From Acidobacteriota bacterium (GTDB lineage: Bacteria > Acidobacteriota > Blastocatellia > Chloracidobacteriales > Chloracidobacteriaceae): 64,000 nucleotides of DNA. Each line of letters begins with the position of its first letter. The first letter of the stretch is position 1. This document shows, piece after piece, positions 767 to 23,313 of the stretch. The position numbers were made by a program, and so were the translations under genes. Below the pieces are notes generated by a model. That model did not search any database. It was given only the letters and a program-made list of their open reading frames with translations, and had not been told where the DNA came from. The stretch is taken from positions 1-64,000 of the forward strand of contig JACQXX010000110.1 in assembly GCA_016208495.1 (NCBI GenBank), written 5' to 3'.

Positions 767-1027
767 AGACGTCAGGCGGAGGAAAATGGTCTCTCGCCCC
801 AGACTCGAAGGCTTCAGCCCGAAAAACTCATGCGCATTTCCGGTGTCGTGACTTACCGTTTTCCGTCAAGATTGGCCCACTCGCCGGATTGAATAAAAGA
901 CGCCCAGTAGAACGGATGATTCCAGCGTCGGCTTTTGAGCAGTTCAAGTTGAGTATTTTGGAGCGCGTCGCTTCGGCCTTCGCCAGCTTTCAACCGACGA
1001 TAAAAACCGCTCATCAATTCTTTTGTT

Positions 1028-1207
1028 CCTGCTTCTACCGGATTTTGTGTTATGCCAGGTCAACGTTGGAAGTAAAGAACTTGTCAGTACCACCCGCGTG
1101 AGCGGGTGGGGTTAGAAAGAAGCAAGCCAGCCCACCCATTGACGCGGGTGGTACTGACTGATTGGTTCTTCTGATTTGTCTCCAACACAAAATCCGGTAG
1201 AAGCAGG
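1028..1207. repeat. 180-bp palindromic element with 24-bp perfect terminal inverted repeats
   Basis: The arms 1028-1051 and 1184-1207 are perfect reverse complements (24 bp). A second nested pair, 1083-1099 and 1142-1158, is also perfect (17 bp, core CAGTACCACCCGCGT). The element encodes nothing and sits between the pre-peptidase piece and the CHAT end of the broken gene. No clear target duplication flanks it. It looks like a non-autonomous palindromic element, or a repeat whose recombination removed the middle of the gene. Confidence 0.75.
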
Positions 1208-1527
1208 CCCATTTCACGGCATCTGCATTCTGAAGCAGGTCTGTAAGCTCCTGTTCTGTTTGCTCGATTTTGGTCGGAGTCTGTAACTCGCTGACCCTCA
1301 CTTCATATCTTCCCGCAGGTGCGGTTGTATCAGTGGAAACAACCTCGACGTGATAGGTGCCGGCTCCAGGTAAAATACCAGCCAGTACTTTGGATCCCTG
1401 AGGGCCGTTTGGAGTATCAATTTCAGTCAGTTGCTTTGAATCAGGTCCGAACAGTCGCAGGTTGACGTCAATTCCTTTTGGTTTGACCACAAGGTTTAAG
1501 TACTGGCTGCTTTTCACCGTGATCTGA

Positions 1528-1642
1528 TAAGTACCTTGTCATAAATTTCCTGAGATATTGGGTTTGGTAAGTGGTTGATCTTTTTCGTGTTTTTCGTGTT
1601 TTTCGTGGTTAAAATGTCTGGAAACTTTCGGTAAGGTACTTA
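1528..1642. mobile_element. MITE-like element, copy 1 (115 bp, TA target duplication)
   Basis: The ends TAAGTACCTT and AAGGTACTTA are perfect 10-bp inverted repeats, and the outermost TA on each side behaves as a target duplication. The interior carries direct 9-11 bp repeats of TTTTTCGTG and the phrase TCCTGAGATATTG. Copies 2 (11481-11595) and 3 (23198-23313, inverted) share ends and interior. TA duplication is characteristic of IS630/Tc1-mariner transposases, so it is probably moved in trans by such an enzyme; none is encoded in this window. Confidence 0.85.
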
Positions 1643-1973
1643 GAAATGACGCTCGCCGCCGTTGAGATCGCGTTCCTGGTGAAAGCCTTCGATCAACTGA
1701 ACTTCTGATTGAGTTAATTGAGTGGTGGGAGATGCCGGAGCATTCGTTGACGGGTTTTCCTCGACCCCATCAGCCCTGGTTAACCAAATTGGGGCAAAGA
1801 CACCGATGAACAAGAGAAACAGTGGGTTGAACACGTGATTCATCACTTGATCCTTGGGCAAATAGATTTTGAAAAGGGGTTGGCCTGAGCAGATTCGTGA
1901 AGTTGTGCGGTTGAATCAAAGGAAGGTCGCCTGACAGAATATCATTGAATGAATGAGTCAGGCTATCTTTTCA

Positions 1974-11480: not shown

Positions 11481-11595
11481 TAAGTACTCTGTCGTAAGTT
11501 TCCTGAGATATTGAATTTGGTAAGTGTTTGATTCTTTTCGTGTTTTTCGTGTTTTTCGTGGTTAAAATGTCTTGGAATTTTCGGTAAAGTACTTA
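11481..11595. mobile_element. MITE-like element, copy 2
   Basis: Begins TAAGTACTCT and ends AAAGTACTTA (inverted repeats with mismatches), 115 bp, same interior as copy 1 in the same orientation (TTTCCTGAGATATTG, TTTTTCGTG repeats, GTTAAAATGTCT). It lies upstream of the VOC gene and may separate it from its promoter. Confidence 0.85.
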
Positions 11596-23197: not shown

Positions 23198-23313
23198 TAA
23201 GTACCTTACCGAAAATTTCCAGACATTTTGAACCACGAAACACACGAAATACACGAAAAAAATCAAACACTTACCAAATCCAATATCTCAGAAAACTTAT
23301 GACAAGGTACTTA
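23198..23313. mobile_element. MITE-like element, copy 3 (inverted), inside the tRNA-like RNA array
   Basis: 116 bp with ends TAAGTACCTT/AAGGTACTTA, interior reverse complement of copies 1 and 2 (CAGACATTTTGAACCACG, CACGAAA repeats, CCAATATCTCAG). It separates tRNA-like RNAs 1 and 2. TGAAT flanks both sides, but this may be chance in local TGAATTA repeats. Confidence 0.85.

Follow-up and report, generated by a model that had tools for sequence, protein, structure and literature searches.

A PPC-TPR-CHAT gene in the window, the 64,000-nt stretch of DNA analyzed here, was found to be broken by two different MITE families, represented by element A and element B. Element A is very probably a non-autonomous, MITE-like DNA transposon. 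A DDE transposase acting in trans would have inserted it into a TA of the gene by cut-and-paste transposition with duplication of the TA, in the style of Tc1/mariner-IS630 elements, and two copies of B in the gene would have recombined, deleting the stretch between them and with it the middle of the gene. The Tc1/mariner-IS630 route and the type of transposase were proposed on account of the TA target alone. The features are as follows.

853..1027, minus strand: final 58 residues encoded by the CHAT gene, with its stop codon (PF12770 positions 240-289 of 289, E 5.2e-12).
1028..1207, plus strand: element B, a second MITE-like repeat, 180 bp with 24-bp perfect terminal inverted repeats, one long hairpin.
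1208..1527, minus strand: rest of the PPC domain and the following region (QITVKSSQYLNLVV...NADAVKWA; PF04151 E 3.4e-5, narrowly missing the gathering cut-off).
1528..1642, plus strand: element A, a MITE-like repeat, 115 bp with both TAs and 111 bp without (family alignment, direct reading).
1528..1529, strand not applicable: TA, one copy of the target duplication (direct reading, homologues, family copies).
1641..1642, strand not applicable: TA, the other copy of the duplication (same evidence).
1643..1843, minus strand: N-terminal piece of the PPC-TPR-CHAT gene, from the ATG at 1843 through ...RDLNGGERHF into a TAA formed by A (blastp to intact paralogues).
11481..11595, plus strand: diverged copy of A with the TAAGTACTTT end variant.
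23198..23313, minus strand: another copy of A, within a TGAATTA-type tandem repeat.

The initial annotation had recognized a MITE insertion at a TA site but gave the range as 1208-1861. The insertion was borne out by a family of repeats with common ends, of which 55 distinct intact copies were sampled and 51 carried TA at both ends. The range proved to be that of the surrounding gene remnant, A itself occupying 1528-1642, and the exact ends already proposed for it agree with the TA-bounded alignment of the family copies. The inverted ends of A are AAGTACCTT...AAGGTACTT and its bounding sequences TAAGTACCTT...AAGGTACTTA. The terminal inverted repeats are imperfect (TAAGTACCTTGTCATAAATTTCC / GGAAACTTTCGGTAAGGTACTTA), with arms of 32 nt that pair at 75%, and the element encodes no transposase.

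Direct reading of the minus strand gave GGC GAG CGT CAT TTC, then the element (TAAGTACCTTACCG...GACAAGGTACTTA), then T CAG ATC ACG GTG AAA. With A present the frame terminates immediately (TTC TAA). Removal of A with one TA kept yields CAT TTC TAT CAG ATC (H F Y Q I) and hence GERHF-Y-QITVK in frame, the single-TA sequence at the site being CATTTCTATCAGATC; retention of zero or two TAs shifts the frame by two. The earlier reading that the PPC domain is rejoined in frame with TAT at the junction was therefore confirmed in the codons TTC TAT CAG. Its wider claim, that removing the element restores the frame, held for the PPC domain and failed for the gene, which carries B and lacks about 930 codons.

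The site was then compared with related proteins, as had been suggested for the GERHFYQITVK junction. A 101-residue stretch was searched against 58 genomes, and a single homologue from each of 29 other genomes was aligned. All 29 PPC homologues were gap-free across the point occupied by A and had Tyr or Phe as the junction residue, which shows that the target contained TA once and that A duplicated it. A search of viral contigs for homologues of the interrupted gene found none. Copies of A elsewhere in the genome gave the same picture. At locus L177, joining the flanks by one TA reconstructed an empty site as a perfect 7-bp tandem repeat, (TAACCAC)n, running through the junction. At locus L141, one TA restored the end of a third repeat, element C, that C itself lying in the hairpin of a B copy. 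The base next to the TA agreed in 13 of 55 and 17 of 55 copies, about the level of chance, so the duplication is taken to be 2 bp and not 3. Together these comparisons of sequence support, as the initial annotation had proposed, a target duplication from a single TA and an insertion later than the origin of the gene, since the homologous PPC domains are continuous where A now lies. With more than 40 matches to A at E<1e-39 and all 29 homologues in agreement, the pattern is not due to chance. It documents, to the base, a MITE insertion with its target duplication in a bacterial class that has received little study, backed by homologues and by empty sites within the genome.

The TAs could instead belong to A, which would then have fixed ends (TAAGTACC/GGTACTTA) and have inserted without any duplication. 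TA stands at nearly every A end, so the family alignment alone cannot separate this reading from duplication. However, fixed TAs would make the ancestral sequence CAT TTC TCA GAT, with a broken frame and loss of the aromatic residue present in all 29 homologues, and would put the 7-bp repeat at L177 out of phase; we regard the idea as hardly credible. A long-frame test of all 49 A copies returned 11, 15 and 14 frames of at least 150 aa with one, no and two TAs, respectively, numbers that carry no weight either way because most copies are intergenic. One further copy (L012:1501-1615) seemingly interrupts a gene, where a single TA leaves 301 codons open with the junction at 200/101.

The family was also surveyed in the genome. 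BLAST gave at least 42 copies among the matches listed (E<1e-39, 91-100% identity), and the copy number was put at roughly 75-100. Allowing up to 1 mismatch, one end type occurred 102 times, and exact ends of both types pooled occurred 144 times. The length was 115-116 bp in 54 of the 55 sampled copies, and the median divergence from the consensus was 5%. Spans of 298 and 329 bp were copies with an internal insertion or replacement, and spans of 142 and 155 bp were other end pairings. In the flanks, T was moderately favored three bases ahead of the TA (105 of 196 sides, many copies being counted on both strands). Short length, absence of a transposase, terminal inverted repeats, target duplication and many near-identical copies are the traits of a MITE, and they support A as a MITE-like family, a clear-cut instance of a familiar type of element and a new family of that type.

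Spread of A by recombination as a structured RNA or regulatory repeat of the REP/ERIC kind, rather than by transposition, was judged highly improbable. A can form a hairpin, although one barely better than those of shuffled sequences (z -1.8), and no transposase partner was found for it; an Rfam search, on the other hand, returned no match to A, and the 2-bp target duplication in a gene, in tandem repeats and in other repeats is a signature of transposition.

A appears to be a private expansion, since its end pattern was confined to its own genome among the 162 searched in the class, was not found in viral contigs and, for the one end searched, was not found in one-genome-per-species contigs, a collection that may omit the genome of the window. 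A plasmid collection likewise contained no A end pattern. In 38 relatives only the central CACGAAA repeats of A were matched, over short stretches. This central motif, CACGAAA x3 (AACCACGAAANACACGAAANACACGAAA), was observed in other genomes of the class (e.g. around position 1501 of L061, L063 and L064), in some cases within short hairpins, without the ends of A.

A helper for A was sought at the DDE_3 and DDE_Tnp_1 loci of the genome, a draft of 177 contigs in which multi-copy insertion sequences may be lost at contig edges, and none of the three DDE_3 loci and neither of the two DDE_Tnp_1 loci belonged to an autonomous element with the ends of A. A shows the TA target duplication of an IS630/Tc1-mariner-derived MITE; an IS630-family helper with matching ends was not found at any of the three DDE_3 loci. 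The locus on contig C85 (355 aa) had no A-like end, that on C61, at a contig edge, had an end matching element C, and that on C23 was ISAzo13-like with GGGAGTCGG ends and adjoined a copy of A. At L069:569-1861 an insertion sequence of the ISAzo13 type (PF07592), bounded by GGGAGTCGGAAG ends, was observed immediately next to an A copy, and an end similar to that of this element lies beside A at L009. At C61:38843-39317 (L068) a partial DDE_3 transposase gene reaches the contig edge with an end equal to that of element C, and is probably the helper of C. The C end was seen again at the edge of another contig (C58:113-136).

Element C is about 101 bp long (TACCATTTTGGAAT...CTACAAACTGGTA), has 3-bp TNA target duplications (TCA, TTA, TGA, TAA), and its ends gave 74 matches with up to 3 mismatches. 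The repeats were repeatedly found inside one another: B lies within a copy of A at L043 with an 8-bp duplication (TTATGACA), A occupies the TA of a C end, that C being inside a B hairpin, at L013, L116 and L141, and C occupies a TA common to two adjacent A copies at L112 and L127. A C end was present at 11 of 55 sampled A junctions. Our tentative picture is that A is a species-private MITE family, its transposase absent from the assembly, whose insertions may cluster at C ends, with A and C perhaps each inserting at the termini of the other and thereby building nested stacks. Nesting among at least three MITE families in one genome makes the order of their activity readable. The window also contains, at 1980-2310, a large G+C-rich palindrome-like block (GGAAAGGTCG...CGACCTTTCC) with inverted repeats at 2087-2112/2158-2183, which is probably another repeat family; similar text, GCCCGGATGGGCG, is found after an A copy in L112.

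Besides A, a second lesion has killed the gene: B stands at the site of the lost codons. The piece at 1208..1527 aligns with residues 104-209 in an intact 1194-residue relative, and the C-terminal piece at 853..1027, which shares 79% identity with a paralogue's C-terminus, begins at residue 1136. Because the relative is matched up to residue 209 and then from 1136, about 930 codons (~2.8 kb) are missing. Removal of A makes the PPC domain whole, but the gene still encodes no CHAT protease domain. The remaining coding pieces contain no further stop or frameshift, and their otherwise clean state suggests that the decay is recent. A reading into the end of B, PVEAGTKELM, resembles the CHAT motif PVSDQGTKELM; it was checked and taken as coincidence. 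Members of the gene family are numerous, with about 41 further matches to its PPC domain in the window's own genome; the nearest relative (G001) has 42. Several of them form tandem clusters, on C52 and C145 of the former and C59 of the latter.

Element B is present in many copies in the genome and its predicted fold is very stable (-103 kcal/mol, z -11.5). Both deletion breakpoints coincide with its two outer ends, the deletion starting on the 1207/1208 side. The flanks of the window copy (TTTTGTTC / GCCCATTT) match at 2 of 8 positions and so show no target duplication, whereas 7 of 14 full copies match at 7-8 of 8 (four exact 8-bp duplications and three at 7/8). This difference fits recombination between two B copies, which would be the simplest account of the missing middle. 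Since the copies at L032, L036 and L041 also lack the 8-bp duplication, its absence here is weak evidence for recombination. An adjacent deletion caused by the transposase of B, or an illegitimate deletion, is a realistic though somewhat doubtful alternative. Adjacent deletion too would leave B without a flanking duplication, as some other copies are; breakpoints at both outer ends of B, however, are the direct prediction of recombination between two insertions, with nothing more to be assumed. The inner hairpin of B (window 1083-1158, GTCAGTACCACCCGCGTGAGCGGGTGGG; query 56-132) was also observed standing alone at many sites in the genome, and B may contain an older repeat. Rfam gave the B hairpin a weak P9 match only, below the gathering score.

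Among known systems, ISY100-type Tc1/mariner-IS630 elements (PMC2170065) share the TA target with A but are autonomous and carry a transposase, whereas A encodes none. The Correia/NEMIS elements of Neisseria, of about 107 and 155 bp with TA termini (PMC2229807), resemble A in being short and numerous, with terminal TA, a duplicated target and inverted ends about 24 bp long; the likeness is one of description, and they belong to another organism with no link to this genome. The repeat unit of pneumococcus, RUP, is outlined in the same source as 107 bp long, with about 108 copies and a TA target, and as inserting into IS elements (PMC2229807 citing Oggioni and Claverys 1999). As outlined there, and by description rather than by comparison of sequences, RUP is like A in length, copy number, short terminal inverted repeats, TA target, lack of a protein and landing in or beside other mobile elements. 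It comes from a different organism and, judging by the features listed for it, has different ends, and it is credited with a candidate helper with matching ends, IS630-Spn1, whereas none was found for A. By analogy, A would work as RUP and the Correia elements do while being filed with neither, and is best placed as a separate family of the same kind.
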